From Chitinophagales bacterium (lineage in GTDB: Bacteria; Bacteroidota; Bacteroidia; Chitinophagales; UBA2359): 36,262 nucleotides of DNA. The translations under genes and the position numbers were made by a program. The notes under the pieces were generated by a model. It did not search any database, was not told the DNA's origin, and saw only the letters and a program-made list of their open reading frames with translations. The stretch is taken from positions 1 through 36,262 of the forward strand of contig JAHDEE010000045.1 in the NCBI GenBank assembly GCA_020629005.1, given 5' to 3'. Shown here one piece after another: positions 11,251 through 28,753 of this stretch (its first letter is position 1; every line of letters starts with the position of its first letter).

Positions 11251-11431
11251 GATAATAATAGCCTCGATGGAAGTGGAAATGCTGCGTCGAAGCAGGTACT
11301 GAGCGCTGTGCCGGCTCTGGCTCCCTTAGGAGACAGGGCAGGCACATGCAGCGAAGCCCTGCTGAGTCGCAGCATTGAAACGGACAGCGAGCAAGCCCTT
11401 TACGCGTAGGGAAATCCTTTCGCTCCAAAAA
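11251..11431 (-). repeat. structured intergenic repeat, copy D
   Basis: This 181-bp copy reads on the minus strand from the head TTTTTGGAGCG (11431-11421) to the tail GGCTATTATTATC (11263-11251). The outer stem is AATGCTGCG (11278-11286) plus AGCAGG (11291-11296), paired with CCTGCT (11358-11363) plus CGCAGCATT (11368-11376). The inner stem is CGCT-GTGCC (11304-11312) with GGCAC (11341-11345) and AGCG (11350-11353). The apex carries GGCTC...AGGAGAC (11313-11334), the complement of the apical motif in the other copies. The rest of the gap 11142-11628 holds no gene; its only other mark is a T7-CG-A palindrome near 11521-11536. Confidence 0.75.
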
Positions 11432-11628
11432 GTTTCTACACAAGAATATCTAAGTCCTAAACTGCAGCTCAAGTCTCATAAGTGGTGGACTCTTGGCCCT
11501 TCGAATGCAGCAACTCGAAATTTTTTTCGAAAAAAAAACATCCTCACTAAGGGTAAGACCCGCAGTCTGTGTATTGAAAGTGAACGGCCCGCAAAGGGGC
11601 CAATATTCATAACTTCAAAATATCAGTC

Positions 11629-12466
11629 ATGAAAAATCTATTGAAAAGCAGCGCCTTATTTTTTGCCCTTTTTGTATGTGTACTAATGAATCAATCCTGT
11701 GAGATGGAGCAACAAATGGATAATCCTGAAGGTCTGGCCGCACCTAAGCTGCCTACCACAGAAATGTTTATGCTTCCGGTGGCCAAATTCGAAGGTGCCG
11801 AAGATCTGGACGGCAAAACAAACGATGGTACCTTTGCAAATTTTGTACATGCAGGTGTAAATCTACTGGTCTGGCATACCGCGGTTGTCTTAAATATGGC
11901 AGCTCCCACAGCGGCACTTGCCGGGGCATTTAATCAGGATGCGGAATATATCGGAAACAGTACTTTTGAGTGGGCTTACGATTATCAGGCTCCTCCGAAT
12001 CTCGGCGGACAGAATTTTAACATCGCGCTATCTGGCCAATATGTCAATGCTACTGGTGAAGTGAAATGGATAATGCGTGCATCGCAGGTCGGAGGTTTTT
12101 CAGACTTCATTTGGTTCGAAGGTCAGACCACAAGCGACGGGAAATCTGCCGCGATTACGGTCAATGCGCATCCGAATAATCCTGCGCCGGTTTTCGAAAT
12201 CGATTACGATAAGACCAATGGTGATCAGCAAGTCTTGCTGCGATTTACAAATGCCATTCCTGGTGATGCGGCAAACGGAAACTATGTGGAGTACCGCGCC
12301 GATAACACTGCAAACCTGAATCGCGCTTTTGATGGGAGTGGGAGGGAGCCTGCTCGAAATTCAATACAGTGATAGCACGGGAGCCGGGCAGGTAAAACAC
12401 CCAACCAGATTCAATGACTACGAATGGCATTGTTGGGATCAAAACCGATTTGATACCGAGTGCTAG
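11629..12466 (+). pseudogene. frameshifted lipoprotein gene
   Basis: ATG 11629 opens a lipoprotein (MKNLLKSSALFFALFVCVLM then NQSC; Cys24) whose frame ends at a TGA at 12370. About 30 codons before that stop the family-like sequence ends at NLNRAFDGSG. The frame shifted by one base continues as VGGSLLEIQYSDSTGAGQ, then KHPTRFNDYEWHCWDQ and ends ...FDTEC at TAG 12464-12466. Good protein sequence on both sides places a frameshift between about 12330 and 12349, in a G-rich run (gatgggagtgggaggga). A tail with WHCWD and a last Cys recurs, as far as I recall, in Bacteroidota and myxobacterial lipoproteins of unknown function. Real mutation or assembly error cannot be told apart here. Inverted repeat copies D and A flank the gene. 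Confidence 0.75.
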
Positions 12467-12545
12467 TAGATCGATAATGAAAGGTCTTGTTGACCTAAAG
12501 CACCTTCCGAGTCAATGTTGACATAGTAAAATATTGAGGACAAAA

Positions 12546-12728
12546 TTTTGGAGCGCAGCTAATCCCTGCGCTCTACCTTTGTCCCCGCTATCCAGTCCAA
12601 TGGAGCAAGCATGCTGCTGCTTCATGCATCCGCTACTGCTGTCTCTCCGCAAGCTCCGAGCCAGCATTAGCGGCGCATTCAGTCAGCATCCTGCCTGCTC
12701 CATTTCCCTTTCTATCGGGGCTATTTTG
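12546..12728 (+). repeat. structured intergenic repeat, copy A
   Basis: This 183-bp copy runs from head TTTTGGAGCG to tail GGGGCTATTTTG. The head hairpin is GAGCGCAG (12551-12558) with CTGCGCTC (12566-12573). The outer stem is 12600-12617 with 12686-12703 (15 of 18 pairs, starting ATGGAGCA/TGCTCCAT). The inner stem is CCGCTACTGCTG (12630-12641) with CAGCATTAGCGG (12662-12673), 11 of 12 pairs. The apex spans GTCTCTCCGCA and GCTCCGAGCC (12641-12662). The rest of the gap 12467-12943 holds only the leader of the TonB receptor gene. Confidence 0.8.
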
Positions 12729-12943
12729 CACCCATTCCCCACGTGGTAATAAAGAAAGACTGTTTTCCAAAGCACTAGCTTTAGTGCCACTGCATTCGAA
12801 AGCTGTAAATGTTAAAATTCGGGATTTGGTATTGTGCAATCTTCGACTCATTTGGTTATATAGTCTATTGATTATGAAGATTGCAAGTAGGGGGCTTGGC
12901 CCGATTTTTCGTCCTATATTCAGGTCGAGAACGGCCACCGCTT

Positions 12944-15571
12944 ATGAAGATCTGCCCCTTGATAATTAGTTTGCTAATGATTGCTCAAATCAGCTTTGGG
13001 CAAAGCCTTGCAGATCAACCAGTAGTGCTTAGCTATCAACAACAATCCCTGGCGGAAATTCTCGAAGATCTTGCCGACAAATATGAGCTCAGCTTCTCCT
13101 ATGCAAAGATGGATCTAGCCTTAGCCCAGACCATTAATTACAGCGGCTCTTTGGATGCTGGGCTGCAGCAGCTTTTCAAGCCTTTGGGTATAGAGCATCG
13201 CTGGATTGGCTCCCAGGTCGTGCTGAAATATGGATTTGCGATTGGCCGGGCTGTGAAAGGGCAGGTATTGGATGAGCAAACCAAAGTGTCTCTTATCGGT
13301 GCCACAATTTGGGTGCTAGACTCCGATCCTGTAATTGGTGCAAGCTCGGATGAAGACGGATATTTTAAGATTGCCGGACTTCCCATTGGACGCTATGATT
13401 TTCAAGTGCAATATCTTGGCTACGAGCCTCGGGTCATTAATCAGGTATTGGTAAATGCTGGCAAGGAAACCTTTCTGGAAATACCATTGAGTGAGTCTAC
13501 CATGTCTCTTGGAGAAGTAGTGGTGGAAGTGGAACGTGACCCTGGGGCAGCTGTAAATGAAATGGCAGGGCCTACTGCACGGGCCTTCTCGGCTGAGCAA
13601 ACACAAAGATATGCAGCTGCGATTTCAGATCCGGCAAGAATGGTGCAGTCCTATGCGGGCGTTTCCAATGGTGGAGATGATTTGTCTAACGAAATTGTGG
13701 TTAGGGGCAATAGCTCCAGAGGACTCTTGTGGAAGATTGATGGCATTGAGGTGACTAATCCAAATCACTTTAGCGGGCTTGGGGCGGGAGGCGGCAGTGT
13801 GAGCATGCTGAGTTCCCGCACCATGGCAGATTCCGATTTCTACACCGGTGCATTCCCTGCTGAGTTTGGCAATGCGCTCACAGGTGTTTTCGACATGCGG
13901 CTACGTAATGGTAATAAAGACAAACGGGAGCACAGCATAGTGATCGGCAACCTGGGGATGGAGGCAGCTACAGAGGGATACATCAGTCGGAAGTCCCGCG
14001 CCTCTTATCTCGCTAATTATCGCTATTCGACCATCGAACTCATTGCAAAGTATCTACCAAGCATAGAACGGCAAAAGCCAGCTTATCGCGATCTTCATCT
14101 GAAGCTCAATGTGCCTACCGATAGATTTGGTCTGTTCAAGGTATTCACTTTGCACGGCAATAACAAGGTAAGTATTGATGCAATTCGAAATCCGGAGACC
14201 TGGCAATCGATAAACGATGCGACGGATACAGAGGAGGCTCAGCGACTGGGAGTGATTGGAGCCAGTCATCGTTATCTTTTTGCTGATGACTCCTATCTCA
14301 CCAGTGCTGTATCTGTGTCCTCCTATCGATTTAGGGATCGGACAGTCTTGTTGGAATTGCAACCGGATATGAGTTTTCTGGAAGATACTGTCGATGAATC
14401 CTCTTTTGCAAATGATGACTATGCATTGGCCATCAACTATTTTAAGAAGTTTCATGCAGGAATGTTTCTGAGTGCGGGTATCACCATGACGCATAAGCGA
14501 TTTGATTATCGCTATTTTAGTATTGATCCTGATTTTATGCCTCAGCAGTTTATCAAAGGAGCTGGAAATACTAATTTCTTGCAGGCTTACTTACAGGGGC
14601 AAATCAAGCCCTACCAACGTATGACCCTGATTGCAGGCTTGCACTTTTCGCAGCTATTTCTCAATAATACCTTTGGAATTGATCCTCGCCTGGCGCTCAC
14701 TTATGATCTTACAGAGCGGCAAACAGTATCCTTATCCGCCGGCTTGCACAGCAAACCGGAACATGCCAGTACTTATTTCATTGAACGCATAGAGGAGGGG
14801 GCTGATCTAAAATATCCGAATCTGGACTTGCCGATGTCCCGGGCTGTGCATTTGGTTGCTGGTTACAGTGCTTTCCTAAGACCAAAGTTGCGCTTCAAGA
14901 CGGAGCTCTATTACCAGTACCTTTATAATGTTCCTGTTTCAGCAGATACCAGTTCAGGCTTTTCTGTGCTCAACAGTTTGGATGTCTTTGACATAGTTTT
15001 TGGCAATCGACGGTCTACTGTAAACCTGGCAGGAGAGGGTAGGGGAAGAAACTATGGAATTGAGCTAAGTCTGGAACGCTTTCTGGGAGACGGCTATTAT
15101 TATATGGTAAATTCCTCTCTGTTTGATTCTCAGTATTCGGGTATAAACAAACAATGGCACAGAACCCGTGTGGCTACAAACTTTCTCTTCAATGCACTTG
15201 CCGGCAAGGAGTGGCTCTTTGGGCCGCGCAAGCAATTCGTCTTTGCCCTGAATTCGAAATTTGCCTTCTACGGTGGGGTGAGGGATCACCCGATCCATCT
15301 ACCATCTTCGATCGAAGCAGGAGTGCAGATTTCGATACCTGGCAGATTCTACACCACTCAGTTGCCAGCTTATATTCGTTTTGATCAGGGAGTCTCTCTA
15401 AAAGTAAACACCCGCAAGACTACCCACACTTTTGCTTTGGATCTGCAAAACGTATTTAATCGCTACAATATCTACAATCGCTACTACGATCCTATAGCTG
15501 AGCGAATCCTTGACGAAAGGCAAAATGGCTTGATTCCTTTTGTGTTGTATCGATTTGAGTTTAGCCATTGA
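12944..15571 (+). CDS. TonB-dependent receptor with STN and carboxypeptidase-like domains
   Basis: An 875-aa outer-membrane receptor. The signal peptide is MKICPLIISLLMIAQISFGQ. Next come an STN domain (about 27-95: SLAEILEDLADKYELSFSY), a CarboxypepD_reg-like domain (about 108-187: VKGQVLDEQTKVSLIGATI, DEDGYFKIAGLPIG), a plug (about 220-320: VVRGNSSRGLLWKIDGIEV) and the beta-barrel, ending in the aromatic strand PFVLYRFEFSH. An STN domain often signals control by a FecI/FecR-type sigma/anti-sigma pair, but none is adjacent. No SusD follows, so it is more likely a small-molecule or metal-chelate receptor than a SusCD glycan importer. An in-frame TTG at 12881 was rejected because the signal peptide begins at ATG 12944. 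Confidence 0.88.
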   Translation: MKICPLIISLLMIAQISFGQSLADQPVVLSYQQQSLAEILEDLADKYELSFSYAKMDLALAQTINYSGSLDAGLQQLFKPLGIEHRWIGSQVVLKYGFAIGRAVKGQVLDEQTKVSLIGATIWVLDSDPVIGASSDEDGYFKIAGLPIGRYDFQVQYLGYEPRVINQVLVNAGKETFLEIPLSESTMSLGEVVVEVERDPGAAVNEMAGPTARAFSAEQTQRYAAAISDPARMVQSYAGVSNGGDDLSNEIVVRGNSSRGLLWKIDGIEVTNPNHFSGLGAGGGSVSMLSSRTMADSDFYTGAFPAEFGNALTGVFDMRLRNGNKDKREHSIVIGNLGMEAATEGYISRKSRASYLANYRYSTIELIAKYLPSIERQKPAYRDLHLKLNVPTDRFGLFKVFTLHGNNKVSIDAIRNPETWQSINDATDTEEAQRLGVIGASHRYLFADDSYLTSAVSVSSYRFRDRTVLLELQPDMSFLEDTVDESSFANDDYALAINYFKKFHAGMFLSAGITMTHKRFDYRYFSIDPDFMPQQFIKGAGNTNFLQAYLQGQIKPYQRMTLIAGLHFSQLFLNNTFGIDPRLALTYDLTERQTVSLSAGLHSKPEHASTYFIERIEEGADLKYPNLDLPMSRAVHLVAGYSAFLRPKLRFKTELYYQYLYNVPVSADTSSGFSVLNSLDVFDIVFGNRRSTVNLAGEGRGRNYGIELSLERFLGDGYYYMVNSSLFDSQYSGINKQWHRTRVATNFLFNALAGKEWLFGPRKQFVFALNSKFAFYGGVRDHPIHLPSSIEAGVQISIPGRFYTTQLPAYIRFDQGVSLKVNTRKTTHTFALDLQNVFNRYNIYNRYYDPIAERILDERQNGLIPFVLYRFEFSH

Positions 15572-15776
15572 GTGCCTGTGCTTACGAGACGTTTAGGTAT
15601 AGTTATTGATTCTCTGTCCCTTAGCAGGGAAAAGCTGGTGCCAAGGATGCGATCACGATTAGTGAATTGTCCAGGTTATTCTGATTCGATGTTTAAACGT
15701 TGATTTAGTGACGGAGATCGCTTATCTTCATGTCTGAGGTGCAAATCACCTCGATTGGTCACACAAACATAGAAGC

Positions 15777-16739
15777 ATGCTTCGTCGAAAATTCATTAAG
15801 GGTTCAGCCATTATTGGGCTTTCTTCACTCTCTACTTTACCGCTTGTTTCCCATTCCGGCATGTTGCTCGGCAAAGGAAAACGAAGAGTACATCAGATAC
15901 TAAGTGCGGATGCAGTTAATGTAGGCACATTACCGGTGATGCGAGCATTTGCCGGTGACCGCCAAGACTATGTTTCTCCCTATGTGCTTTTTGATGAGTT
16001 TGGACCTGTAAACGTCGCCGCCGGTAGCGACCCGCTAAGAGTGGATGCGCATCCACATGCTGGGGTAACGCCCACAACCTATTTTCTGGAGGGCACAGGG
16101 CATCACAAGGATAGTTTGGATTATGATTTTCAGATCGGGAAGGGAGATTTCATGATGTTTAGCTCCGGGCGAGGCGCCATCCACATGGAGGAGTCCGGGC
16201 AAAAGTTATACGATGAAGGAGGTTTCTATCACGGCTTTCAGATTTGGCTAAACACCCCTTCAAAGTACAAATTTGATTTGCCGACTACAAGCGTTCATCG
16301 TGAGGAACACATGGATATGATCGAAGAGGAGGATTATTCGATCAAAGTTGTGTTGGGCCAACTAGGAGAGGCAAAATCGAGTATTGACCTATTGTCTCCC
16401 GCCTTTTATTACCATGTGAAGATGAAGGAAAATGCACGACTGGATATTCCTACAAACCCACTTCATAATGCTTTTGTTTACGCGATTGCTGGAAGCGTGG
16501 AACTTGAAGGTCAAAAGCTGATGAAAGAACAGCAAGTTGTTTTATACGAGCGAGGAGAAAGCTTGATCAACTTGTATGCCCAATGTGATTCTGAATTTCT
16601 GGTTCTCGGTGGGATGCCGCTTGATGAAAGAGTCTATTCCTATGGACCCTTTGTGATGAACAATGAGGAGCAGATTCAATTGTGTATCCGAAATTATCAG
16701 GCCGGCTTAATGGGTGACCCTGATGTGGTGAATCGCTAA
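15777..16739 (+). CDS. pirin-family protein with Tat-like signal
   Basis: This 320-aa bicupin belongs to the pirin/YhhW family, some members of which are quercetin 2,3-dioxygenases. The metal ligands are His92 and His94 in DAHPHAG, His136 and Glu138 in SSGRGAIHMEES. The second cupin (about 200-290) has lost such ligands, as is usual. Ahead of the fold lies a twin-arginine-like signal: RRKFIKGSAIIGLSSL (3-18) followed by a short hydrophobic stretch, suggesting folded export to the periplasm. That is unusual for pirins, which are mostly cytoplasmic. A 6-bp hairpin (GAGGTG/CACCTC, 15736-15752) lies in the leader. The gene stands alone between the TonB receptor and the convergent M43 protease. 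Confidence 0.85.
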   Translation: MLRRKFIKGSAIIGLSSLSTLPLVSHSGMLLGKGKRRVHQILSADAVNVGTLPVMRAFAGDRQDYVSPYVLFDEFGPVNVAAGSDPLRVDAHPHAGVTPTTYFLEGTGHHKDSLDYDFQIGKGDFMMFSSGRGAIHMEESGQKLYDEGGFYHGFQIWLNTPSKYKFDLPTTSVHREEHMDMIEEEDYSIKVVLGQLGEAKSSIDLLSPAFYYHVKMKENARLDIPTNPLHNAFVYAIAGSVELEGQKLMKEQQVVLYERGESLINLYAQCDSEFLVLGGMPLDERVYSYGPFVMNNEEQIQLCIRNYQAGLMGDPDVVNR

Positions 16740-16886
16740 GAAGTAAGACCAACAAGAAGTGGGCATTGACCGGTCATGTTTCTCACCTTGGGAGAATTGC
16801 TGAATTCCAAAGCCGCCAAGATACACAAAGTCCTTTCAAGCGATGAAGGAGAAGATGCCAAGATTCGACTTTGAGCACTTTTAGGT

Positions 16887-18140
16887 TTACTCAAGGACGA
16901 GTTTGCCCCTATGCGATTTCTTGCCTGCCAGAAGCTGGTAGAAGTAAATGCCATCGGGTAAATGACTTACGTCAACCGCAGTTGAAAGAGAATTAGGCGA
17001 TGTCAGCAATACCGTTTTACCTTGTGCATCAAATAACGCGATCTGCTTGACTTTTATTGAAGACCTGAAGAAGCATTGCTGATTCCCCGGATTTGGGAAC
17101 ACCTCTACCTCCCAACCAATTGATTCGACCTCAGTATTGGTTACCATGTCCATGCAGCCCGTCGCAATCAGATTCTCGGTAGTCCATAAATTTGATCTTG
17201 AGGGTAGATAAAGTGCAGCCTCCATTCGTTCAACCTGGCCTTTTGTGAACATTCGTTTACAGCCATGATTGTAGTCCATGAAATTGGAACCATTTGTACT
17301 AACTCCACAACTCATATCATAATTGTAGCAGCCCTCAGGAAATATCGTTCCTCCGTCAGTTCTGGGTGTATCATCTACTTGATCACCTACACCAAAGCAA
17401 GCATCTTCAAAGGTGTGCGCCAGATTTAACCAATGTCCTACTTCATGAGAAATTACTGAAGCCCAATCATGACCTTCTTCCAAAATTGACTTGGTACCAT
17501 AACCCCACCTGATGGAACTGTAGAACACGCCATCAGTATTGTTCAGTACATTTTGGTAATCTGGATAATAGGCATAGGCCGTAAAGTCTGAAGAATCTCC
17601 AAAAGCGTACTTTGGTAAATAAATATTGAGGTACTGTTGATTGTTCCATGCGTATTGAAAAGGATTGCCCTCATTGTATATGGCGAGCGGATCTTCATGG
17701 TACAAGATTCCAGAGGTTGGATTGCCTGAAGGATCCAAAGTGGCCAGGCAAAAGTTGATACTCAGCGATGCCTTTATGCTGTCAAACTGGGCATCGATCT
17801 GATCCCAAGCATCATTAAGCCCATTAAAATCATCGTTCAGGATTTGCAGGCCAGATAGTGCTTGTTCGGTGTCGATTTTTGCATCGTCACCATTATGGAA
17901 AACGTGCAACACGACTGGGATGGTATAAGTTGCCGTGTCGTTTTCTGCTGCTCTATTATTGCGATTTCGCCTAATCTGCTCCTGAATAAAAAACTCATTT
18001 TTACCGATTTCTTCCTTTGCATCTGTCAGCCCGTTTGTTGTAAGCCGATCAATATGCGCCCCTAGCGAGCAAGGAGATTGAGCAATGGAAGCTGTCAAAG
18101 CAAATGAAAGCAAAAGACCTATTGATAGCAGAGTTTTCAT
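16887..18140 (-). CDS. M43-family zinc metalloprotease with T9SS sorting domain
   Basis: A 417-aa secreted protease of the cytophagalysin/pappalysin type. The signal peptide ends near SIAQ (21). A pro-like region precedes YTIPVVLHVFHNG (72-84). The zinc motif is HEVGHWLNLAH (232-242), in which Asn replaces the usual Gly of HExxHxxGxxH. The Met-turn is NFMDY with Met288. Paired cysteines occur around 248-294. The C-terminus (about 340-417) is a T9SS type A domain (VFPNPGNQQCFF, LPDGIYFYQLL, GKLVLE). It is expected to be an extracellular endopeptidase. It has a TATCTTTG -7 box 47 bp upstream. Confidence 0.9.
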   Translation of the reverse strand: MKTLLSIGLLLSFALTASIAQSPCSLGAHIDRLTTNGLTDAKEEIGKNEFFIQEQIRRNRNNRAAENDTATYTIPVVLHVFHNGDDAKIDTEQALSGLQILNDDFNGLNDAWDQIDAQFDSIKASLSINFCLATLDPSGNPTSGILYHEDPLAIYNEGNPFQYAWNNQQYLNIYLPKYAFGDSSDFTAYAYYPDYQNVLNNTDGVFYSSIRWGYGTKSILEEGHDWASVISHEVGHWLNLAHTFEDACFGVGDQVDDTPRTDGGTIFPEGCYNYDMSCGVSTNGSNFMDYNHGCKRMFTKGQVERMEAALYLPSRSNLWTTENLIATGCMDMVTNTEVESIGWEVEVFPNPGNQQCFFRSSIKVKQIALFDAQGKTVLLTSPNSLSTAVDVSHLPDGIYFYQLLAGKKSHRGKLVLE

Positions 18141-18187
18141 CCGATTATTGGTTTTGGGATTAGGGTTGTGTCATGGAATTTGTCTTA

Positions 18188-18195
18188 CAAAGATA
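18188..18195 (-). promoter_or_regulatory. promoter of the M43 protease gene
   Basis: TATCTTTG on the minus strand matches TAnnTTTG, with a weaker CTTGG element about 21 bp further upstream. The leader would be about 40 nt. Confidence 0.5.
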
Positions 18196-18959: not shown

Positions 18960-18989
18960 GCTATTTTCTTGATCTTATAATTGACTGCT

Positions 18990-21833
18990 ATGAAATTCTT
19001 AATGGATCCCAGAAGCGTATTGCTCACACACTTGCTACCGGTGATCCTGTTATTTCTCTTTGCATACAGTCAATATACCATCATCCATTCCCTGATTGAT
19101 GAAGACAATCTTGCAATCGCAAAGAAGTTTGCGATTTCTCTTGGATCGATTAGTCTGCTACATCTTGTTATTGCAGGATTGAGCTATCTGCGGAAGAAGC
19201 CTCTCGGCATTCTGTACGGCTTGTTGAGTATTGCCACCGTTTGCTTTTGGATTGGCGCCTACTTTTTTCTTGGAAGGGACATGCTTCCAGATGTGCCACG
19301 TTGGATGATGCCAGAGGAACCCGTATTTTTTATCCTGATGTTGCTGATGCCTACACTGGCCCAATCGGTATTGGTCCTGGCAAATGCCATTAGCCCAAAT
19401 CCGGAAAGTAAGAGTGCCTGGAAGAGTTTCTTGCTCTCTGCCCTGGTGCCTTGCTTTTGGTTTCTTGTATCGAGGTTTCCGTATTCTTTCAGAGAGCCAG
19501 AATTCATGAGACACCGCTTCTTTGAGCACTTGATGGTGGTGGTGGTCATTGCTTCTTTTGTGCTTTTCTTTGTTTTGCTGGCAAGGGGTTTTTTGATCTT
19601 GTTTAGTCGTGGATCTTCGCTCTTACAAAAGTACCCTTTGCTGTACAAGATTCCCATCACCCTGATTTTTCCCTTATTGGGTTTGGCAGTCAATTCCGGG
19701 CATTTGATGATGCGATATACTGGTGGAGAGTTCGGCTTCTTCGGCAATTTTTCCAATAAGTGGTTTTATATACTGGCCATTGTAAATGGACTTGCGCTTT
19801 GTTTGCCAAATTTGCCGAATCGCTGGTATCGTCTCGTGCTCTTTCTGTGGAGAAGCTGCACATTTGCCTATACGCTATATTTCTTTTTAGCCTTTCTGCC
19901 GTATATGTTTCTGGCTGTGCCTATGATCGTAATGGCGGGCATTGGCTTCCTTATTCTGACTCCTTGCATTTTGTTTTTGCTTCACGTCAACATAATGAGC
20001 AAGGACATACAGTTTCTGAAAACACAGTTATCACCAGGGCTCTTGGCAATCGGGGCGATGGTATTTTTTCTTCTCATTCCAGCTGCAGTGACCAGGTCTT
20101 ATCTAGATGATCGGACCAGTCTTCATCAGGCTTTGGATTACATTTATCATCCGGACTATGACTCCGAATCCACTGTAGATCAGGATTCAGTTGAGGGGCT
20201 GCTAAAAGTACTTCGTGTACATAAGCGAAGGGATAGAGGTTTTTCTCCTGGTAAGCAAGTTCCGTTTCTTTCATCTTATTACACCTGGTTGGTTTTAGAT
20301 AACCTAACCATATCTGACAAGAAGCTGGACTTGATGCAGCAGGTATATGAGGGTCAAAATTCGGTGCGGCTCCGGGAGGGAATCGCTCCGATTAAAACTG
20401 CTGAGATACAATCTATAAGCAGCAGCAGCACTTACGATAGGCAGCAGGATGCCTGGACCTCGTGGATTGATTTGGAACTGCACCAAGACAACGATAGGCT
20501 GCGAGCTGGGGAATACCTATGTCACTTTAACCTTCCCAATGGTTGCTGGGTTAGCGACTATTACCTCTATGTTGAGGATCGAAAGGAAATGGGATTGCTG
20601 ACGGAAAAGAAGGCGGCTGAATGGGTTTATTCTCAGATTCGGAGCAGAAACCGAGACCCGGGACTGCTGACCTATATATCTGGAAACACCTTGTCTTTTC
20701 GCGTTTTTCCATTTGTACGCAAACAGACTCGGAAGACTGGAATACAACTGATACACAAGGAGCCCTTTCAGCTTGACTTTGATGGGCGCAAAATTATGCT
20801 TGGAGACCCTTCGGAACAGGCACAGGTGAAATCAGCAAGTTCTTCCGATGGAGAAGTTATATATGTGTCTAAGGCTGAGAAGCAAACGTTAAAAGAAGTT
20901 TACAGGCAGCCTTACATGCACTTTCTTGTTGATGTATCTCTTGATATGGCCTTGAACAAGGATCGGCAAATAGCGAGACTGCAAAGCTTGCTGGATTCTA
21001 AGGAGCTACCCTTACAGGGAGCCAAAATCAGCTTCGTAAACACATACGGCAAAACCACTGAATTCGGTGAATCCTGGACGCAAGATTTACGGCAACAAGC
21101 CTGTGAAGGTGGATTCTATTTGCGAAGAGCAATGGACCAGGTACTCGTGCAATCCTACAAGGAAATGTCCGATAGGTATCCTGTCATGCTGGTATTGACA
21201 GATAGCCTTCATGAGGCAATACTGCCGGGTGATTTTCGCGATCTTGCAATGTCCTATCCAGAATCGCCCTACTTCTATGCATGGACTGACGAGGGTTTGA
21301 CCCAGCATTCACTGAACAAAGCACCAAAGCAAATTATTGCGAGACCTCAGGAACTGCAATTGTCACATCCTGTCTTTGCCTGGCCAGGGGCAGGGGAGAG
21401 GATGGCTTACCTTGATACCCTTTCGCAGCCTTCTATTGTGCTAAACAGTGATATCATTTCTCCTCCTCAGCAAAATATTGCTGCAAAAGACTGGCAAGCG
21501 GGACTCAGTATTTGGGGAGCATATCTTTCTCAGGTTTTGCATCCGGACCGGGAGGAGCACAGCTGGCTACAAATGGTCAGGGCAAGTTTCAAATCACGTA
21601 TCATGAATCCGTATACCGCCTACATGGTAGTAGAGAATGAAGCCCAGAAACTTGCCTTGTTGCGCAAGCAAGAACAGATTCTTTCAGGCAAGCAGTCGCT
21701 TGATGCAGGAGAGGAACTTCGGCCGATGTCGGAGCCTGGCATTGGTACAATGTTATTATTGCTGACAATGATGCTCTTTGTTGCTCGAAAATTGGCCAAA
21801 ATAAGAAGTAAAGGGCAATCATTTGTGGATTAG
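18990..21833 (+). CDS. MSEP-CTERM sorting protein with VIT-like domain (XrtK substrate)
   Basis: A 947-aa membrane protein and the presumed single target of exosortase K. The N-terminal 380 or so residues contain about ten hydrophobic segments. A periplasmic part follows with a VIT-like region (about 510-620: LPNGCWVSDYYLYVEDRKE, GLLTEKKAAEWVY, RDPGLLTYISGNTLSFRVFPF), then a part resembling the von Willebrand A region that usually accompanies VIT domains (FLVDVSLDMALNKDR, YPVMLVLTDS). The C-terminus has the tripartite signal: Met-Ser-Glu-Pro at 913-916 (nt 21726-21737), a hydrophobic helix (about 919-932) and basic residues. ATG 18990 is chosen over the in-frame TTG 18981. Its cellular role is unknown; the N-terminal membrane array is an odd companion for a sorted surface protein. 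Confidence 0.88.
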   Translation: MKFLMDPRSVLLTHLLPVILLFLFAYSQYTIIHSLIDEDNLAIAKKFAISLGSISLLHLVIAGLSYLRKKPLGILYGLLSIATVCFWIGAYFFLGRDMLPDVPRWMMPEEPVFFILMLLMPTLAQSVLVLANAISPNPESKSAWKSFLLSALVPCFWFLVSRFPYSFREPEFMRHRFFEHLMVVVVIASFVLFFVLLARGFLILFSRGSSLLQKYPLLYKIPITLIFPLLGLAVNSGHLMMRYTGGEFGFFGNFSNKWFYILAIVNGLALCLPNLPNRWYRLVLFLWRSCTFAYTLYFFLAFLPYMFLAVPMIVMAGIGFLILTPCILFLLHVNIMSKDIQFLKTQLSPGLLAIGAMVFFLLIPAAVTRSYLDDRTSLHQALDYIYHPDYDSESTVDQDSVEGLLKVLRVHKRRDRGFSPGKQVPFLSSYYTWLVLDNLTISDKKLDLMQQVYEGQNSVRLREGIAPIKTAEIQSISSSSTYDRQQDAWTSWIDLELHQDNDRLRAGEYLCHFNLPNGCWVSDYYLYVEDRKEMGLLTEKKAAEWVYSQIRSRNRDPGLLTYISGNTLSFRVFPFVRKQTRKTGIQLIHKEPFQLDFDGRKIMLGDPSEQAQVKSASSSDGEVIYVSKAEKQTLKEVYRQPYMHFLVDVSLDMALNKDRQIARLQSLLDSKELPLQGAKISFVNTYGKTTEFGESWTQDLRQQACEGGFYLRRAMDQVLVQSYKEMSDRYPVMLVLTDSLHEAILPGDFRDLAMSYPESPYFYAWTDEGLTQHSLNKAPKQIIARPQELQLSHPVFAWPGAGERMAYLDTLSQPSIVLNSDIISPPQQNIAAKDWQAGLSIWGAYLSQVLHPDREEHSWLQMVRASFKSRIMNPYTAYMVVENEAQKLALLRKQEQILSGKQSLDAGEELRPMSEPGIGTMLLLLTMMLFVARKLAKIRSKGQSFVD

Positions 21834-21936
21834 TTTGATATTTTACATACCTTGCCGGACAGCCCTCTGCTGAGGGTAAAGCAGTTTTTACTCGACATAG
21901 AATTTTTGACTATTTGTAGACGGAACGTGGGAATGA

Positions 21937-21950
21937 TCCGCCATGGCGGA
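21937..21950. promoter_or_regulatory. 14-bp perfect palindrome in the leader of the helical-repeat gene
   Basis: TCCGCCATGGCGGA lies 33 bp before the start codon at 21983. It could be an operator or a leader hairpin. A promoter-like ACTATTTG (21910-21917) lies just upstream. Confidence 0.3.
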
Positions 21951-21982
21951 GCTATATATGCTACCTATGCAAATCGATATGT

Positions 21983-23512
21983 ATGAGAACTCCCGTTGAC
22001 AATCTCTATATGCTGATCAGCAGCATGACTGCCGCAGAAAAGAGGTACTTTAAGGTGCACTTTTACCGTAAAGGCAACAAACTCTCTCGGCTATATGACT
22101 TTCTCGTTAAAATGAAACGATACGACGAGGCAGTTGTGAAACGCTATTTTTCCAAGGATAAATTAAGTGCAAACCTTAAAGTATACAAGAGATTGCTCTA
22201 CGATCTTTTGCTAAAGTCTCTGATGTCCAATCGGGAGCCTGCAGATCCCATGCAGGAAGTACTTCGAGGTCTGGATGCCGTAATTCTGCTGGAGAAGCGT
22301 GGACTCTACGTTGAAGTTTACAGAAGGTTAGAAAAATTGAAACTCATTGCTGAGCGCGCCAATCTCGCGGAGTACACCCTGATTCTCCTACAATATGAAA
22401 TTCGCTTCTTGCATCGAAATGGATTTCAATTGGAGTTTTCACCGCAAGAAACCTTTGAGAAACAAATGGAAATCAGTAGTCGGCTTGAAACAGTGATCAG
22501 AAAGTCTGAAATTGCCGTCGAGCTTTCTGCTATGGGCCTTCGTATTGCCCACTACACAAATAATAATGAACTCAAGAGCGAGGCGCAGCGGAAGGAATTA
22601 GAAGATTTTCTCAATGGCAATCTGCTCAATAAGCAGGTCGAACGAACCGCAAACAGCTCTGTAGGCCATTACTTTTTAAGTCTTCAGGCATCCGCACTGA
22701 CTGCTCTGGGCCGGCATCAAGAGGCAAGGGCCACATTTCTGGCAATTCTGCAAGAGCAGTATGTAAAAGCAAATGAACTAGTGCTGGCAGAAAAGCAGAG
22801 CTTTGTATCCGTTTGCATAAATTTCTTACATTGCTCCGCATTGCTGAGAGATTATGAAGGGTCTGAAGAATGGATCGCAAGAGCAAAGCGCATCATCATT
22901 ACAGAACCCACATTGGTCGGTCTACTCGCCCTGATTCATGCCTCTGAAGTTAAGATGCTTCTGAACAAAGGCTTGCTGGAGCGGATGCAAATGATCCGAG
23001 AAGGTATCTTTTCCCGGCATCTCAAAAATTTTCAAAACCTTGGTCTTGCTCAGCAATCCATCGTATGGTCATACTGCATTCTTGATCTGGTTGACGGCTT
23101 ATTTGAAAGCTGCCTGAAAACAATCGAGGAATTGCAGAATTGGCCGTATATGCGAAGCCACTACCTGTCCAGTGTTCGAGCAGTGCAGCTGATATGTCAC
23201 TACGAACTGGGAGATCACCCTGCGATCAGACTGCTATTGCGAAATTCTGTGAAGCAACCTTCCGTAATTCTGCAAACTCTTGAGAATGCATTTGCCCGGA
23301 TTCTCGAAGATCCTACTGAAAACGAGCGCTACCTGACGCAGGCCCATAAAGACTTTATGGCAAGTCAGCCTTCGGAACAAGAAGAGGACGAGCGTGTATT
23401 ATGGTACTGGCTCCAAAGCAAAAGAGAATTATTGGACTTTAAAACCCTGCTGCTTCAGCAGCTTCCACAAGAGACAGGAGGAATTAAGTTATCCAAAGGA
23501 GGTTCTCATTAG
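21983..23512 (+). CDS. Bacteroidota helical-repeat (TPR-like) protein of unknown function
   Basis: This 509-aa soluble protein is almost entirely alpha-helical. It opens with NLYMLISSMTAAEKRYFKVHFYRKGNKLSRLYDFLVKMKRYDE-type sequence (key motif EKRYFK at 19-24), a start I associate with a widespread but unnamed Bacteroidota family. The middle and end contain paired helices in TPR or SEL1-like spacing (for example 235-270 and 385-420), without a clear consensus repeat. No signal peptide, catalytic motif or DNA-binding motif is seen. It is probably a scaffold or regulator, which is inference. A 14-bp palindrome precedes it, and it converges with the small membrane-protein gene 6 bp away. Confidence 0.7.
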   Translation: MRTPVDNLYMLISSMTAAEKRYFKVHFYRKGNKLSRLYDFLVKMKRYDEAVVKRYFSKDKLSANLKVYKRLLYDLLLKSLMSNREPADPMQEVLRGLDAVILLEKRGLYVEVYRRLEKLKLIAERANLAEYTLILLQYEIRFLHRNGFQLEFSPQETFEKQMEISSRLETVIRKSEIAVELSAMGLRIAHYTNNNELKSEAQRKELEDFLNGNLLNKQVERTANSSVGHYFLSLQASALTALGRHQEARATFLAILQEQYVKANELVLAEKQSFVSVCINFLHCSALLRDYEGSEEWIARAKRIIITEPTLVGLLALIHASEVKMLLNKGLLERMQMIREGIFSRHLKNFQNLGLAQQSIVWSYCILDLVDGLFESCLKTIEELQNWPYMRSHYLSSVRAVQLICHYELGDHPAIRLLLRNSVKQPSVILQTLENAFARILEDPTENERYLTQAHKDFMASQPSEQEEDERVLWYWLQSKRELLDFKTLLLQQLPQETGGIKLSKGGSH

Positions 23513-23518
23513 TGCCAT

Positions 23519-23923
23519 CTACTTCCAGGCAACCTGCGAGATCATCATCAGGCAAAACCCAATAATGGCTACAAACTTGATGGCGGTAGAAAGTTTGTAC
23601 GATTTCAAATAATCAGAATCAAATCCAAGTTCTCGCAACTTTTTGCTAGTCGTTGTAACCTGGACAATGAGAAATATCAGCAGCACCGCAAAGTACAAAC
23701 TCATCGAAACGAGCGGGTCCATAAACCGCATCTTCAGCACAGCAAAATAGCCGATGATCAGCAAGATCATCAGACCCAATGACCAAAGTCTCTGGGAAGC
23801 AAACTGGGTCACGAGGAGCTGCACCTGCTCTACCTCCAACTTCTTTATCGCCCTCTGGTTGATAATATTGGCCCCCAGAAACAAGACAAGCATAAAAATA
23901 AAGGCAAGCATAAATCCATCCAT
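23519..23923 (-). CDS. small membrane protein of unknown function
   Basis: 134 aa with four hydrophobic helices (about 3-20, 47-65, 72-90, 112-130) separated by short charged loops (NQRAIKKLEVEQ, TTTSKKLRELGFDSDYLKSYKLS). Both ends appear to face the same side. No family was recognised. The stop lies 6 bp from the stop of the convergent helical-repeat gene. The next upstream gene (AlkD-like) is divergent. Confidence 0.7.
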   Translation of the reverse strand: MDGFMLAFIFMLVLFLGANIINQRAIKKLEVEQVQLLVTQFASQRLWSLGLMILLIIGYFAVLKMRFMDPLVSMSLYFAVLLIFLIVQVTTTSKKLRELGFDSDYLKSYKLSTAIKFVAIIGFCLMMISQVAWK

Positions 23924-24078
23924 CCTTTCTGATTTTGTTCATTTTGTGCCAGGCAAATGATGCGACAATCCAATGCTCAAGCCTTACAGCAGCTATCGCC
24001 AGGCTTAACCTTGCATTAAAGCGCTTCGTTTTGTCTACAGCAGACTGGATCAAACGCTTCCAATCTACGCAAAAGAAC

Positions 24079-24086
24079 TATCTTTG
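24079..24086 (+). promoter_or_regulatory. TAnnTTTG -7 box of the AlkD-like gene
   Basis: TATCTTTG ends 18 bp before ATG 24105. It contains the in-frame TTG 24084, so that TTG would precede the transcription start. No well-spaced TTTG is seen at -33. Confidence 0.45.
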
Positions 24087-24104
24087 AAAAAAAGAAATTG
24101 GCCA

Positions 24105-24812
24105 ATGACCGCTCAGGAAATCATGAAGGAGTTAGAATCTTTGGGTAGTGAGTCCACAAAGAAAATATTGATCAAGCATGGCGCTAAGGAGCCTTTTTAC
24201 GGCGTTAAAGTAGCGGATCTGAAAAAGATCCTCAAAAAGACCAGGAAAAACCACGACCTGGCCATGGAATTGTACGCCACTGGTAACTCAGACGCCATGT
24301 ACCTCGCAGGCCTGATGGCCGATGAAACCAAGATGACTAAAACCATCCTCAATAAATGGGCGAAAGAGGCCTATTGGTATATGCTCAGCGAATACACCGT
24401 GGCCTGGGTCGCCTCTGAGACTAAGCATGGATTCGAACTAGGCAATAAGTGGATTGAATCCAAAAAGGAGCATATTGCTGCGGCTGGTTGGGCTACACTT
24501 TCTTCCTATGCCTCCATCAAGCCAGACGAGGAACTGGACATAGCCAGATATAGCGAATTACTCGACCGTGCTGGCGAAGAAGTACACGATGCGCAGAATC
24601 GGGTTCGCTATGCAATGAATGGTTTTGTGATTGCCACAGGTTGTTTCATCACTGAACTCACTCAAAAAGCAAGCGAAATAGGTGCAAACATCGGCAAAGT
24701 AAGCGTCGACATGGGAGGCACCGCTTGCAAAGTGCCATTGGCCAAAGAGTACATCGAAAAGGTGAGTACTAAAGGACGATTAGGCAAAAAGAAAAAGCAG
24801 GCTCGCTGCTAA
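24105..24812 (+). CDS. AlkD-like DNA alkylation repair protein
   Basis: This 235-aa protein fits the HEAT-like-repeat AlkD family, whose characterised member is a DNA glycosylase removing N3- and N7-alkylpurines. Family marks are the N-terminal ESTKKILIKHGAKEPFYGVKVADLKKI, then LYATGNSDAMYLAGLMAD and the helical pair WAKEAYWYMLSEYTVAWVA, with HIAAAGWATLSSYA further on. It lacks a signal peptide and ends in a basic tail (GRLGKKKKQARC). This group is somewhat divergent from AlkD proper, so repair activity is inferred. ATG 24105 is chosen because the upstream in-frame TTG lies inside the promoter box. lspA begins 30 bp downstream and may be co-transcribed. Confidence 0.8.
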   Translation: MTAQEIMKELESLGSESTKKILIKHGAKEPFYGVKVADLKKILKKTRKNHDLAMELYATGNSDAMYLAGLMADETKMTKTILNKWAKEAYWYMLSEYTVAWVASETKHGFELGNKWIESKKEHIAAAGWATLSSYASIKPDEELDIARYSELLDRAGEEVHDAQNRVRYAMNGFVIATGCFITELTQKASEIGANIGKVSVDMGGTACKVPLAKEYIEKVSTKGRLGKKKKQARC

Positions 24813-24842
24813 GTCAAAGCTTCAATATATTAATTAGTAGTT

Positions 24843-25367
24843 ATGAGTAAGTTGTTGCGCAGCATCATCATTATTTCTGTCATTCTTGTCAACATTGGTT
24901 GTGACCAGATTTCCAAGGAAGTGGTTCGCAACAGCATCGACAAATACGAGCGGATAGAATTGATCAAAAGTAATTTCATACTTACCAATGTAGAAAATAC
25001 CGGAGCAGCGTTAAGTCTCGGTTCCGATCTGCCTCCAGCGCTAAAAGTCCTCTTCCTGCAAATTTTGCCAATCATCATGCTGCTGATATTGCTTCGCATG
25101 ATCATCGTCCGCACTGAGCTTTCACCCTGGGCAGTCATCGGACTCGCATTCGCAATCGGTGGCGGTATCGGAAATATATATGATCGGGTTCTTTATGGAT
25201 CTGTCACGGATTTTATGCACATAGATCTAGGATTTGTCAAAACAGGCATCTTCAATATGGCCGACGTCTCTGTGGTCATCGGAATGATCCTCATCCTTGT
25301 GGATTTTGCCTTCAGTCAAAATAGAAAGCCCCCAACAATTGCGGATTCAGAAGCGGGTGCCGTTTAG
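24843..25367 (+). CDS. lspA: lipoprotein signal peptidase (signal peptidase II)
   Basis: This is a 174-aa inner-membrane aspartyl protease that cleaves prolipoprotein signal peptides after lipid attachment. It has four membrane segments. The family motifs are CDQISKEVV (20-28), NTGAALSLGS (about 52-61), GGIGNIYDRVLYGSVTDFMH with the first catalytic Asp, and FNMADVSVVIG with the second. Length is typical. This window alone encodes at least five lipoprotein precursors that would need LspA. It may be a paralogue rather than the only copy in the genome. A structured repeat copy with a long hairpin follows at once. Confidence 0.93.
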   Translation: MSKLLRSIIIISVILVNIGCDQISKEVVRNSIDKYERIELIKSNFILTNVENTGAALSLGSDLPPALKVLFLQILPIIMLLILLRMIIVRTELSPWAVIGLAFAIGGGIGNIYDRVLYGSVTDFMHIDLGFVKTGIFNMADVSVVIGMILILVDFAFSQNRKPPTIADSEAGAV

Positions 25368-25393
25368 GTCTCCACTACGAATTAGATGATTCT

Positions 25394-25634
25394 TTTTTGG
25401 GCGTGCCCTTGGCTGTCTCGTGGGCGCAGCGGCTAGAGCAGGATGTTTCCCGCCGCTAGTACTGCGCCCACCAGACAGCCAAGGTCGGGCTATCCGCTCT
25501 CACTCACCTTGTCCACTGCGCTTCGGCTTATGCGCTCTGTGGTCTCTCCGCAGGCTCCGAGCCCCCATAGCACATGCCTCAGTCGCAGTGGCCGGCGGCT
25601 CGTACCGCTTCTATCCCTCACGCAGGTAGTTTTG
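25394..25634 (+). repeat. structured intergenic repeat, copy B (long-headed)
   Basis: This 241-bp copy runs from head TTTTTGGGCG (25394-25403) to tail GGTAGTTTTG (25625-25634). Outer stem: CCACTGCG (25513-25520) with CGCAGTGG (25584-25591), perfect. Inner stem: TATGCG and CTGTGG (25529-25542) with CCATAG and CACATG (25565-25576), one mismatch and a 2-nt bulge. The apex GTCTCTCCGCA/GCTCCGAGCC (25542-25563) matches copy A at 21 of 22 positions. CGGGCTATCCGCT (25486-25498) is identical in copy C. The extra 60 bp are a long head hairpin (25408-25483). The rest of the gap 25368-25807 has only a promoter-like pair. Confidence 0.8.
25408..25483. repeat. 22-bp-arm inverted repeat in the head of copy B
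   Basis: CTTGGCTGTCT-c-GTGGGCGCAG (25408-25429) is complementary to CTGCGCCCAC-c-AGACAGCCAAG (25462-25483), with a single C:C mismatch; CTAG is repeated further inside on both sides. It lies 40 bp after lspA and could also end or stabilise that transcript, but no T-run follows. Confidence 0.8.
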
Positions 25635-25749
25635 TCCCATCTTTTGGGAGTTAGACGACAAATATTCAATGTGTAATTCGTTGGCTTTGACATACATCAG
25701 CCCGGTGCATATGGAGAGTTTCGTAACTTACTTACCTGCCCTTTGGATT

Positions 25750-25781
25750 TTTGGCCTAAAATGTGATCTACAGTCTATTTG
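25750..25781 (+). promoter_or_regulatory. possible promoter of the broken discoidin-like gene
   Basis: TTTG (25750-25753), 20 bp, then TCTATTTG (25774-25781), one mismatch from TAnnTTTG. It ends 26 bp before ATG 25808. Confidence 0.35.
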
Positions 25782-25807
25782 AATAACTAATACAAAACGA
25801 TCGTCGG

Positions 25808-26272
25808 ATGCATTTCTTTTTCACAATATTTTTGCTGACGCTTCTTTGCTGCTTTCAGCAATGATTTGCACAATGTACGGACAACGGCAACTATTGGAAC
25901 AAGTCATGGGTTTCTTGTAGCAATAGCCCCAACCCAAATACAGCACATGGAAGCAGCCAATGGATTCTTTATGAGTTTCATGGTGGTCAAAACCTGGATA
26001 GTACACACATTTGGAACGCCAATCGCATTGGCGAAAGCGGGAACGGTGTCAAAGGTGTGATTGTAGATTATTCTGAAGATGGAACAACCTGGATCAACAA
26101 GGGCAGCTATACCTGGCCTCAGGCAAATGAGTCGAATGAATATAGTGGTTTTGAAGGTCCTTCTGTGCATCGTGAACCCATAGAAGTCATTGACCAGACT
26201 GACATAAATACCATTGCATGCCTGTTCCAGAACTTTAAGAGTTTTGTTATCTTATGCCTTTCACATAAATAA
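25808..26272 (+). pseudogene. broken secreted discoidin-like protein gene
   Basis: ATG 25808 starts a good signal peptide (MHFFFTIFLLTLLCCFQQ) that hits an in-frame TGA at 25862-25864. The same frame then continues FAQ-CTDNGNYWNKSWVSC, so the TGA sits just before the expected signal-peptidase site and replaces one sense codon (TGG or CGA would each need one change). The following 80 or so residues (HGSSQWILYEFHGG, THIWNANRIGESGNGVKG, VIVDYSEDGTTW, GSYTWPQA) match a discoidin/F5_8-C-like domain I recall from T9SS-secreted Bacteroidota proteins. After GFEGP (about 26160) the sequence loses family character and ends at TAA 26270, with no sorting domain. It has therefore both a nonsense mutation and a lost 3' part. 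Confidence 0.75.
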
Positions 26273-26281
26273 CTTGACCTT

Positions 26282-27853
26282 ATGATTTGGAGAATTCTGC
26301 TGCTGGTAATGCTAGCACTTGGAACCAGTGCCCCGCTGCATGCTGAATCGCATCTTTTCTTTCTGCACAATCGTTGGCTTGAACTTGAGCCGGATGAAGC
26401 TCACCCGCAACATGGTCGGGCGATGTATCAAGAAATAGTACAGGCATTTGAACAAGCAGGATTGATCGTACATTCAGAATTGCGGGCGCCTGATACCGAG
26501 GTAGAACCGTACTCCCAAAAGGTTGTTGAGGAGATCAAGGGATTGTTAGCTGATGGGGTAGATCCTTCCGACATTACTGTTGCTGGAACCAGCAAAGGAG
26601 GATTTATAGCCCGCAGAGTAAGTGCCCAATTGGCGAATCCGGATATAAACTTTGTCTTCATTGCCTGTTTCGTGCCACCGGATACCGAGCCAATTCGAAA
26701 ACTGGATCTGCAAGGCAATGTGCTGTCCATATTTGAAAGCAGTGACGGATGGGCACAATCTGCTATTCCTTATCTCGAAGCTCAAGAACAGAAAGTCACT
26801 CGCTTTAATGAATTGCAATTGCATACACAGCTAGGACATGGCTTCCTTTTCAGGGCTTTGCCAGAATGGATTGTGCCAACCATAGCCTGGGCAAAGGGAC
26901 ATTATGATCAGCCGAACTACGTTTCTAGCCTAAACCAGATTCTGGAGAAAGACAGTAGCTTCAATGGCTGTATACTGGTGCAGCGGGAAGGACAAGCTGC
27001 TTATGCTCGATGTCAGGGCTTTTCTCATTTGGAAAGTGGTGAGCCGCTGACGATGGCAGAGCAATTTGTCATAGGCTCTATTAGCAAGCAGATTACAGCT
27101 GTGTTGGTGATGCAGGCAGTTGAACGCGGTGAGATAGCTTTGGGCGATCGTGTATCCAGGTTTCTGCCGGATTTGGGTCAGGATTGGAAGGATGAAGTTA
27201 GCATTCACCATTTGTTGACTCATACACATGGTATAGAAAGGATAGATGAGGGTTTATCTTTCAAACCAGGTTCTTCCTTTGCCTATTCGCAGATAGGATT
27301 CCATTTGCTAGCTAAAGTACTGGAGCAGGCCAGCGGCAGATCATTTCAGGAATTGTCGGCAGAACTCTTCAAGACGCATGCTTTAAATAAAACCTGTCAC
27401 CCTGATGAAGCACCTTTATCTTATGCAAACCTGGTAGATGGATATGAAGAGGACGATACCGGTCAATTGCAAATAGCAAAAGAGAGTTTGCGAAACTTTG
27501 CAGCAGCAGGCAGTTTTATCTCATCTGCATTTGATCTCGCCAGGTGGAATGATCTTTTGCATGAGGGGAACTTGGTTTCGGAGGCCAGCCTTGCGCAGAT
27601 GAAGAAGGCACATGCTAGAAGGCAACACCCGATATTTGGAGAGATAGAATACGGTTATGGACTCACCTTCCTGAAAGGGGAGCAGGATACACAAATTGGC
27701 GCTTTAGGGTACTCACCAGGTTTCGTATCTGCCAGCTTTTACAATCCGGAGTCCCACACTTCAGTGATTGTACTTCAAAATGTTGTGCAGGGGTTACCGG
27801 ACTTTAAAAAAGTATTCAAAACAGCTCTTGCAAGCATGGAGGTCATTCGCTAG
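26282..27853 (+). CDS. alpha/beta-hydrolase fused to class C beta-lactamase-family serine hydrolase
   Basis: This 523-aa exported protein joins two serine-hydrolase folds. After a signal peptide (MIWRILLLVMLALGTSAPLHA), residues 22-205 form an alpha/beta-hydrolase-like domain with nucleophile Ser104 in GTSKGG, a possible acid Asp155 and His186 in LGHGF. Residues about 215-520 are a beta-lactamase/DD-peptidase-like domain: S266-I-S-K269 (SxxK), Tyr335 in AYSQ (the usual YxN, with Gln for Asn), HHLLTHTHGI, and LGYSPG in place of the third motif. It probably acts as a periplasmic esterase or peptidase, not as an antibiotic-resistance enzyme. It starts 9 bp after the upstream pseudogene. Confidence 0.82.
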   Translation: MIWRILLLVMLALGTSAPLHAESHLFFLHNRWLELEPDEAHPQHGRAMYQEIVQAFEQAGLIVHSELRAPDTEVEPYSQKVVEEIKGLLADGVDPSDITVAGTSKGGFIARRVSAQLANPDINFVFIACFVPPDTEPIRKLDLQGNVLSIFESSDGWAQSAIPYLEAQEQKVTRFNELQLHTQLGHGFLFRALPEWIVPTIAWAKGHYDQPNYVSSLNQILEKDSSFNGCILVQREGQAAYARCQGFSHLESGEPLTMAEQFVIGSISKQITAVLVMQAVERGEIALGDRVSRFLPDLGQDWKDEVSIHHLLTHTHGIERIDEGLSFKPGSSFAYSQIGFHLLAKVLEQASGRSFQELSAELFKTHALNKTCHPDEAPLSYANLVDGYEEDDTGQLQIAKESLRNFAAAGSFISSAFDLARWNDLLHEGNLVSEASLAQMKKAHARRQHPIFGEIEYGYGLTFLKGEQDTQIGALGYSPGFVSASFYNPESHTSVIVLQNVVQGLPDFKKVFKTALASMEVIR

Positions 27854-27893
27854 TAGAGATGAATGATGGCAGAAGATTTCCGCAAAGCGCAGG

Positions 27894-28361
27894 TCATTGA
27901 GGTTCTAGCTCAGGCGTTGGGACCAGTTTTTTTGGGGTAACAATGGGTTCGTAGGTTTTTTCAAACTGCTCCGTATAGCTTTTACGCAATCGTTGAATCG
28001 TTGTATCGTAAGTGCTCGATTTGGTTGTTGGAACTCTAAGTTCTTCACTGCCAGTTACTCCGTCGGGCATCATCGGTTCAGTTCGACTATCCTGACAAGC
28101 CAGCAGATCTTTGTACGCCTTTTCCAGACTGTTTTGGTAATCCTTTACCAGCTGAAGCTGCTTATGTATCGCCTCTTTGTGTTGCTTCTCTGCTTCAAAC
28201 AGTAGCTCTGCCTCACCTTGATCTACCTCAACCGTCACCTTACCAAGGATGTCGACTTTTTCTACTTTTACGAAAAGCTTCAGCCAGGCTTCACGAAAAA
28301 CGAACATGGCAATCACTGCTACGACTGCCCAGATCAGATGCTTGTACGGAAAATTCTTCAT
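27894..28361 (-). CDS. membrane-anchored coiled-coil protein, unknown function
   Basis: 155 aa with a single N-terminal membrane helix (about 8-27: HLIWAVVAVIAMFVFREAW) and a predicted coiled coil (about 50-90: GEAELLFEAEKQHKEAIHKQ, VKDYQNSLEKAYKDLLACQ), then a Pro/Thr-rich tail ending in PTPELEPQ. The bulk should be periplasmic. No family was recognised. It is a monocistronic gene on the minus strand, downstream of repeat copy C. Confidence 0.65.
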   Translation of the reverse strand: MKNFPYKHLIWAVVAVIAMFVFREAWLKLFVKVEKVDILGKVTVEVDQGEAELLFEAEKQHKEAIHKQLQLVKDYQNSLEKAYKDLLACQDSRTEPMMPDGVTGSEELRVPTTKSSTYDTTIQRLRKSYTEQFEKTYEPIVTPKKLVPTPELEPQ

Positions 28362-28574
28362 AGCTTATCTGTTTGGTCTTATGCAAAAGATACCACATTT
28401 TTATAATAAATCCGTGATCTTTCGTTTGATTTGTAGTGGAATACCAAAATGAAAAAACTGAAATATCTTCCATTGACTTGTTTGTCTCGGGAAAGTTTAC
28501 CGTATTGTATTTCTACTGTTGATTGATTTCGCGATGAACTGCACCATGCATTGTGGCCGCGGGTATGGCAGTAA

Positions 28575-28753
28575 CAAAATAGCCGGGATAGAAGCGGAAT
28601 GCAGGAGGCAGCAGGCCGACTGAGTGTGCCTGTAGCCATGGCTCGACCAAAGGAGAGACATGGCTACAGGATACACGAAGCGGCTTGATGCCTCCTGCAT
28701 TATAGCGGATAGCCCGTAGGCCACCAACGCGCTGGCTACTGCCTCGCTCCAAA
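28575..28753 (-). repeat. structured intergenic repeat, copy C
   Basis: This 179-bp copy reads on the minus strand from the head TTTGGAGCG (28753-28745) to the tail GGCTATTTTG (28584-28575). Outer stem: AATGCAGGAGGCA (28598-28610) with TGCCTCCTGCATT (28689-28701), perfect 13 bp. Inner stem: CCTGTAGCCATG (28629-28640) with CATGGCTACAGG (28659-28670), perfect 12 bp. Apex GGCTCGACCAAAGGAGAGAC (28640-28659). It shares CGGGCTATCCGCT with copy B (complement at 28704-28716). It fills much of the 448-bp gap 28362-28809, which holds nothing else recognisable. Confidence 0.82.

Follow-up and report, generated by a model that had tools for sequence, protein, structure and literature searches.

Flavo-1 (Rfam RF01705) entered the literature in 2010, when Weinberg et al. 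(PMC2864571) reported it from Bacteroidetes as a probable non-cis-regulatory RNA, and its function has stayed unassigned. Its matches in F. psychrophilum include sense and antisense ones as well as some located outside transcribed regions (PMC9723704). Two further kinds of repeat come close to the elements described here, namely the REP elements with their associated RAYT / TnpA-REP proteins (PMC3733652, PMC6006769) and the MITEs and other non-autonomous mobile elements.

We analyzed a 36,262-nt stretch of a Chitinophagales bacterium genome (contig JAHDEE010000045.1; hereafter the window), in which four copies of a structured repeat, labeled A to D, display features of all three. With Flavo-1 they share a Bacteroidota host, a core (UAGCC-GAU-GAAG-GGAA ... 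AGCGGA-AGC) and short helices split by 3x3 internal loops; with REP elements, a high-copy, intergenic and palindromic nature and an occurrence in both orientations near gene ends; and with MITEs, a short length, many copies, precise ends and lineage-specific sites. The four copies belong to an extended Flavo-1 family counting several hundred repeats in this genome. The reading that we favor, with a probability of roughly 0.58, is that they are dispersed non-autonomous mobile elements of Bacteroidota, recognized as a folded single strand in one orientation. A family seen as a probable RNA since 2010 now shows signs of being a mobile repeat with a larger structure, and testable predictions follow, concerning insertion polymorphism, a binding protein and a role in phages.

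Enlarged Flavo-1 relatives in the window

Scanning the whole window against 4227 Rfam families with cmscan (E ≤ 1) gave three matches only, all to Flavo-1, corresponding to copies D, A and C (Table 1). Each match spans the full model (positions 1-76), over which the core motifs and the order of helices and internal loops are present, with about 80 extra nucleotides in the apical hairpin. The three scores remain under the Flavo-1 gathering score of 42 bits, so these copies are best termed enlarged Flavo-1 relatives. Copy B gave no match to the model in the same scan; some relatives of its subtype in other genomes (loci L271, L289 and L298) pass the gathering score. A literature search by sequence string returned nothing relevant.

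The stem pairs that the original prediction had placed in the four copies were read directly at their positions, with A and B running on the minus strand and C and D on the plus strand. That prediction had missed the conserved flanks on both sides of the stems, including the second hairpin and the closing stem of copy B, and it had given the apical loop motif as GTCTC-CC ... GAGCC; the motif is indeed conserved, in the form GGCTC...GAGAC, and its tip is variable. RNA folding z-scores relative to shuffled sequence reached -11.2 for C, -8.1 for A and -6.0 for D. Hairpin 1 of copy B taken alone scored -2.1, a weak value explained by the omission of the second hairpin, with which the score is -6.8.

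Table 1. Positions of the repeat copies, their parts and other features mentioned in the text (window, the 36,262-nt stretch; L numbers, other loci). The outer limits of copies A, C and D are approximate, those of D being taken from flank conservation. In the rows on viral contigs, terminase stands for a large-terminase or terminase-like gene.
Feature	Sequence	Position	Strand	Details
Copy D, type I (Flavo-1-like)	window	11236..11429	+	Rfam part 11256-11398; 3' end CGCTCCAAAA; 38.5 bits, E 6.6e-5
Copy D, stem	window	11278-11286 / 11368-11376		AATGCTGCG / CGCAGCATT
Copy A, type I	window	12547..12746	-	Rfam part 12577-12726; 35.7 bits, E 4e-4
Copy A, stem	window	12600-12607 / 12696-12703		ATGGAGCA / TGCTCCAT
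Copy B, type II, three-way junction	window	25396..25623	-	3' end CCCAAA
Copy B, closing stem, 5' arm	window	25619..25623	-	GCGTG; covarying
Copy B, closing stem, 3' arm	window	25401..25405	-	CACGC; covarying
Copy B, hairpin 1, Flavo-1-like core	window	25487..25618	-	
Copy B, hairpin 2	window	25407..25484	-	inverted repeat 25407-25429 / 25462-25484, 96% complementary
Copy B, stem	window	25513-25520 / 25584-25591		CCACTGCG / CGCAGTGG
Copy C, type I	window	28557..28753	+	Rfam part 28577-28723; 31.9 bits, E 0.0045
Copy C, stem	window	28598-28610 / 28689-28701		AATGCAGGAGGCA / TGCCTCCTGCATT
24-nt tandem repeat	window	1-319		
Gene of 662-aa protein with MopE-like motifs	window	28810-30798	-	internal repeats at 29735-30615
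Y1 gene near an element copy	L010	1365-1913		own genome
Y1 gene near an element copy	L011	1396-1941		own genome
Y1 gene near an element copy	L009	339-884		own genome
Type II beside terminase	L379	3740-3821		viral contig
Type II beside terminase	L382	5909-5983		viral contig
Type II beside terminase	L386	~3268-3360		viral contig
Type II beside terminase	L468	6204-6284		viral contig
Type II beside terminase	L498	2609-2688		viral contig
Orthologous element	L519 / L528	12129-12206 / about 288134-288284		L528 is on G101:C25

Compensatory change in the stems

A covariance model built from 44 copies recovered 70 copies in 821,174 bp of tiles from the same genome, or about one per 12 kb; extrapolation from these 821 kb to the 6.9-Mb genome yields ~590 copies, and a direct genome search found at least 150. 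Decayed copies are rare (69 of the 70 score at least 89 bits, the remaining one 36 bits), as far as the model does not miss badly decayed ones. Identity to the nearest copy has a median of 0.78, with one pair at 0.94; the copies of this genome are old, so recent movement is not visible here.

RNAalifold, run on a MAFFT alignment that was not fitted to structure, predicted 28 pairs, 24 of which have changed on both sides. Over the 70 copies, 95.4% of the predicted-pair cells are paired and the covariation score is 0.80, against 0.20 for shuffled and 0.05-0.11 for slid controls, in an alignment fitted to the covariance model and hence leaning toward structure. With 70 copies in 821 kb and covariation above both controls, the pattern is not due to chance. 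The original prediction had noted that the stems change while their pairing is kept, and had called for a covariation test on genomic copies; the compensatory changes seen at this scale bear it out.

In the 18 closest pairs of copies, which share an identity of 0.78-0.94, 42 double changes keep the pairing, where 8 are expected if the two sides are independent; one-sided changes that keep it number 18, and at most 27 cells do not pair in one copy or both, where 111 one-sided changes are expected. Of the 41 double changes counted at the 28 model pairs, 31 stand alone and 10 fall in runs, a proportion that implies point-wise compensation and not the exchange of hairpins alone. G-U combinations are far more frequent than A-C ones, both in folds counting the two as mismatches (45 vs 12) and in alignment columns (87 vs 8), hence structural selection acts on one strand, an asymmetry that either a functional RNA or same-strand single-stranded DNA would produce. 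The conserved positions are the unpaired ones of the internal loops. Selection on secondary structure, as originally proposed, is thus strongly supported by the covariation, the double changes, the G-U/A-C asymmetry and the conserved internal loops.

Type II elements and the distribution of the family

Copy B and 11 other copies in the tiles are of a second type, which consists of a 5-bp closing stem, a Flavo-1-like hairpin 1, a hairpin 2 and the terminal sequence CCCAAA. This layout indicates that the complete element exceeds the 76-nt Rfam model, which covers hairpin 1 alone. The closing stem pairs at 5/5 positions in 29 of 32 type II copies from the own genome and from G149, a genome of the same genus, a count somewhat favored by the choice of the 3' arm as the best match before CC. 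Its sequence varies (GCGTG/CACGC, GCCTT/AAGGC, GGCTA/TAGCC, GCGGC/GCCGC), and few other explanations would account for arms that differ from copy to copy, stay complementary and sit where the element is expected to end. In type I copies, the evidence for a closing stem is weak, the own 3' partner ranking within the best 10% for 12/58 copies. No own-promoter signature was found upstream of type II copies, the 5' flank showing only a pyrimidine at -1. The same pyrimidine and AAA after the end were seen when the flanks were inspected by eye, with no consistent target-site duplication, which may be one difference from MITEs; a complex covarying multi-loop structure in place of simple terminal inverted repeats is another.

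At least 119 genome-contig stretches carry the type II 5' motif GCGTGAGGGATNGNAGCGG, and all the matches listed with an organism name are from Bacteroidota, with hosts ranging over Flavobacteriaceae, Chitinophagaceae, Saprospiraceae and Tannerellaceae. Among 95 sites, some of them on viral contigs, 65 have a matching CACGCC[CT] end within 330 nt, versus 78 of 1984 control stretches. This sister subtype with its covarying closing stem therefore spans the phylum, and its copies keep their fold as the sequence turns over; one genome, G133, harbors both type I and type II.

Complete type II elements were also present in 14 viral contigs, in 13 of them with distinct element sequences; viral contigs scanned with a type I pattern gave no match. 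In five viral contigs (four of these 14, plus L386, where the element was read directly), a large-terminase or terminase-like gene is followed, at most about two dozen bases downstream, by the element, whose orientation is always opposite to that of the gene. Two of the genes, those of L386 and L498, gave a match to the terminase family phrog_2; the other three (L379, L382 and L468) gave none and group with terminases through BLAST or through their position. This terminase cluster excepted, no recurrent neighbor protein family emerged at 62 type II-motif loci, viral ones included. Tentatively, Flavo-1 and type II might form one phylum-wide mobile superfamily, propagated as folded single-stranded DNA or RNA by a putative Bacteroidota enzyme and ferried between hosts by phages with a copy directly behind the large-terminase gene.

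Of 149 genomes sampled from the class, 54 (about a third) carry Flavo-1, and its copies within a single genus number 0, 2, 11 or 22; likewise, within the host's own family, the R1 model detects the element many times in some members and not at all in others. Relatives of copy B in G149 are 83-91% identical, where shared genes reach about 61-71%. Sites are lineage-specific, G000 and G149 differing at three compared loci: in G149, the element is absent from the locus of copy A, the intergenic region of copy D contains another subtype, oriented the other way, and one gap, of 31 bp in the window, is occupied by a copy. Because the distribution is patchy, sites are specific to lineages and copies are more alike across species than genes are, these comparisons indicate that the elements are probably mobile. 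By a crude gene call, copies are most frequent in convergent gaps (19 of 27) and less so in divergent ones (11 of 39); the region just downstream of genes is preferred, and the elements show no strong orientation bias relative to genes. Copy B gave no blastn match in the plasmid and phage record collections. Two other genomes of one genus, G065 and G101, have one orthologous site in common, which counts against mobility and would be expected of a resident functional element, and a second copy apparently absent from one of the two. At the shared site (L519 and L528), the flanks match but the apical hairpin has been wholly replaced; ~47 nt are also inserted in the 5' side of the element, and a similar hairpin module exists in L261.

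Mechanism and alternative readings

In the reading that we favor, a putative trans-acting protein would recognize the element, about 75-240 nt long, as a folded single strand of defined orientation, whether RNA or the single-stranded DNA that arises in replication or transfer, and would copy it to new sites. Copies that do not fold would not be propagated or would be lost, and such loss would keep the stems complementary while their sequence drifts. We found no mobilizing gene or transposase for the element.

An alternative that we regard as unlikely is that of an RNA element resident in the host, whose copies would each act within the transcript containing them, as a 3' UTR stabilizer or as a processing or protein-binding site, and would be maintained by selection locus by locus, movement being incidental. 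Structure kept copy by copy and the tolerance of G-U pairs, as in RNA, would suit it, and so would the gene context. Genes on the 3' side of the element have their stop end facing it in 27/55 and 38/67 cases, with median gaps of 29 and 60 bp, and the phage copies come right after terminase-like genes, always in opposite orientation. However, tandem gene pairs show same/opposite element orientations of 10/17 and 11/16, without a clear preference, and this, the F. psychrophilum matches on either strand or outside transcripts (PMC9723704), the patchy distribution and the lack of site conservation at most compared loci all speak against a resident function.

That the repeats are REP-like elements moved by a Y1 protein, either a RAYT (TnpA-REP) of subclass 2.6 or a member of subclass 1.2, appears improbable. 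The original prediction had proposed a hairpin-recognizing Y1/REP transposase whose gene should be sought in the genome, and three Y1 proteins are indeed encoded there: two RAYTs (NF047646, 107.7 and 100.8 bits), whose motifs NHxH, WQ and YIHxNP fit subclass 2.6 of PMC6006769, and one subclass-1.2-like, IS200-like Y1 with the motif YIQDQEAHH. All three genes lie about 200-630 bp from a copy, a closeness that is unconvincing because the genome holds one copy per ~12 kb. Atypical structures flank subclass 2.6 genes in Bacteroidetes (PMC6006769), and Y1 genes and Flavo-1 co-occur weakly across genomes (p 0.009 and 0.018, phylogeny not corrected for); some Flavo-1-rich genomes nevertheless lack RAYT 2.6. 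In relatives, 0 of 29 loci for each Y1 type had an element within 1.5 kb of the gene, and Rfam, also run on 20 of these loci, was negative; since the pattern employed picks up 24 of the 30 known Flavo-1 loci and some 44 of the 70 own copies, this negative result is informative but not absolute. The copies are moreover far longer than REP elements and lack the 20-40 nt hairpin with a GTAG or CGTC foot. A RAYT or other Y1 was accordingly rejected as the mobilizer, being near copies in the own genome but not beside elements in others.

Lastly, long hairpins could be corrected by template switching during replication, both arms then changing at once with no selection involved. The correction of quasi-palindromes is a known process, and hairpin 2 is a near-perfect palindrome in some type II copies, B included, but we hold this explanation to be very improbable, since conserved mismatched internal loops persist inside otherwise perfect stems, symmetric switching would not yield the strand-specific G-U excess, and almost no copies are decayed.

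Apart from the repeats, the ORF located between the inverted copies D and A, considered as a possible trapped gene family, had no Pfam match. The tandem repeat at the start of the window is rich in GGN codons, and the 662-aa protein encoded beyond copy C combines MopE-like metal-binding motifs with a type IX secretion tail.
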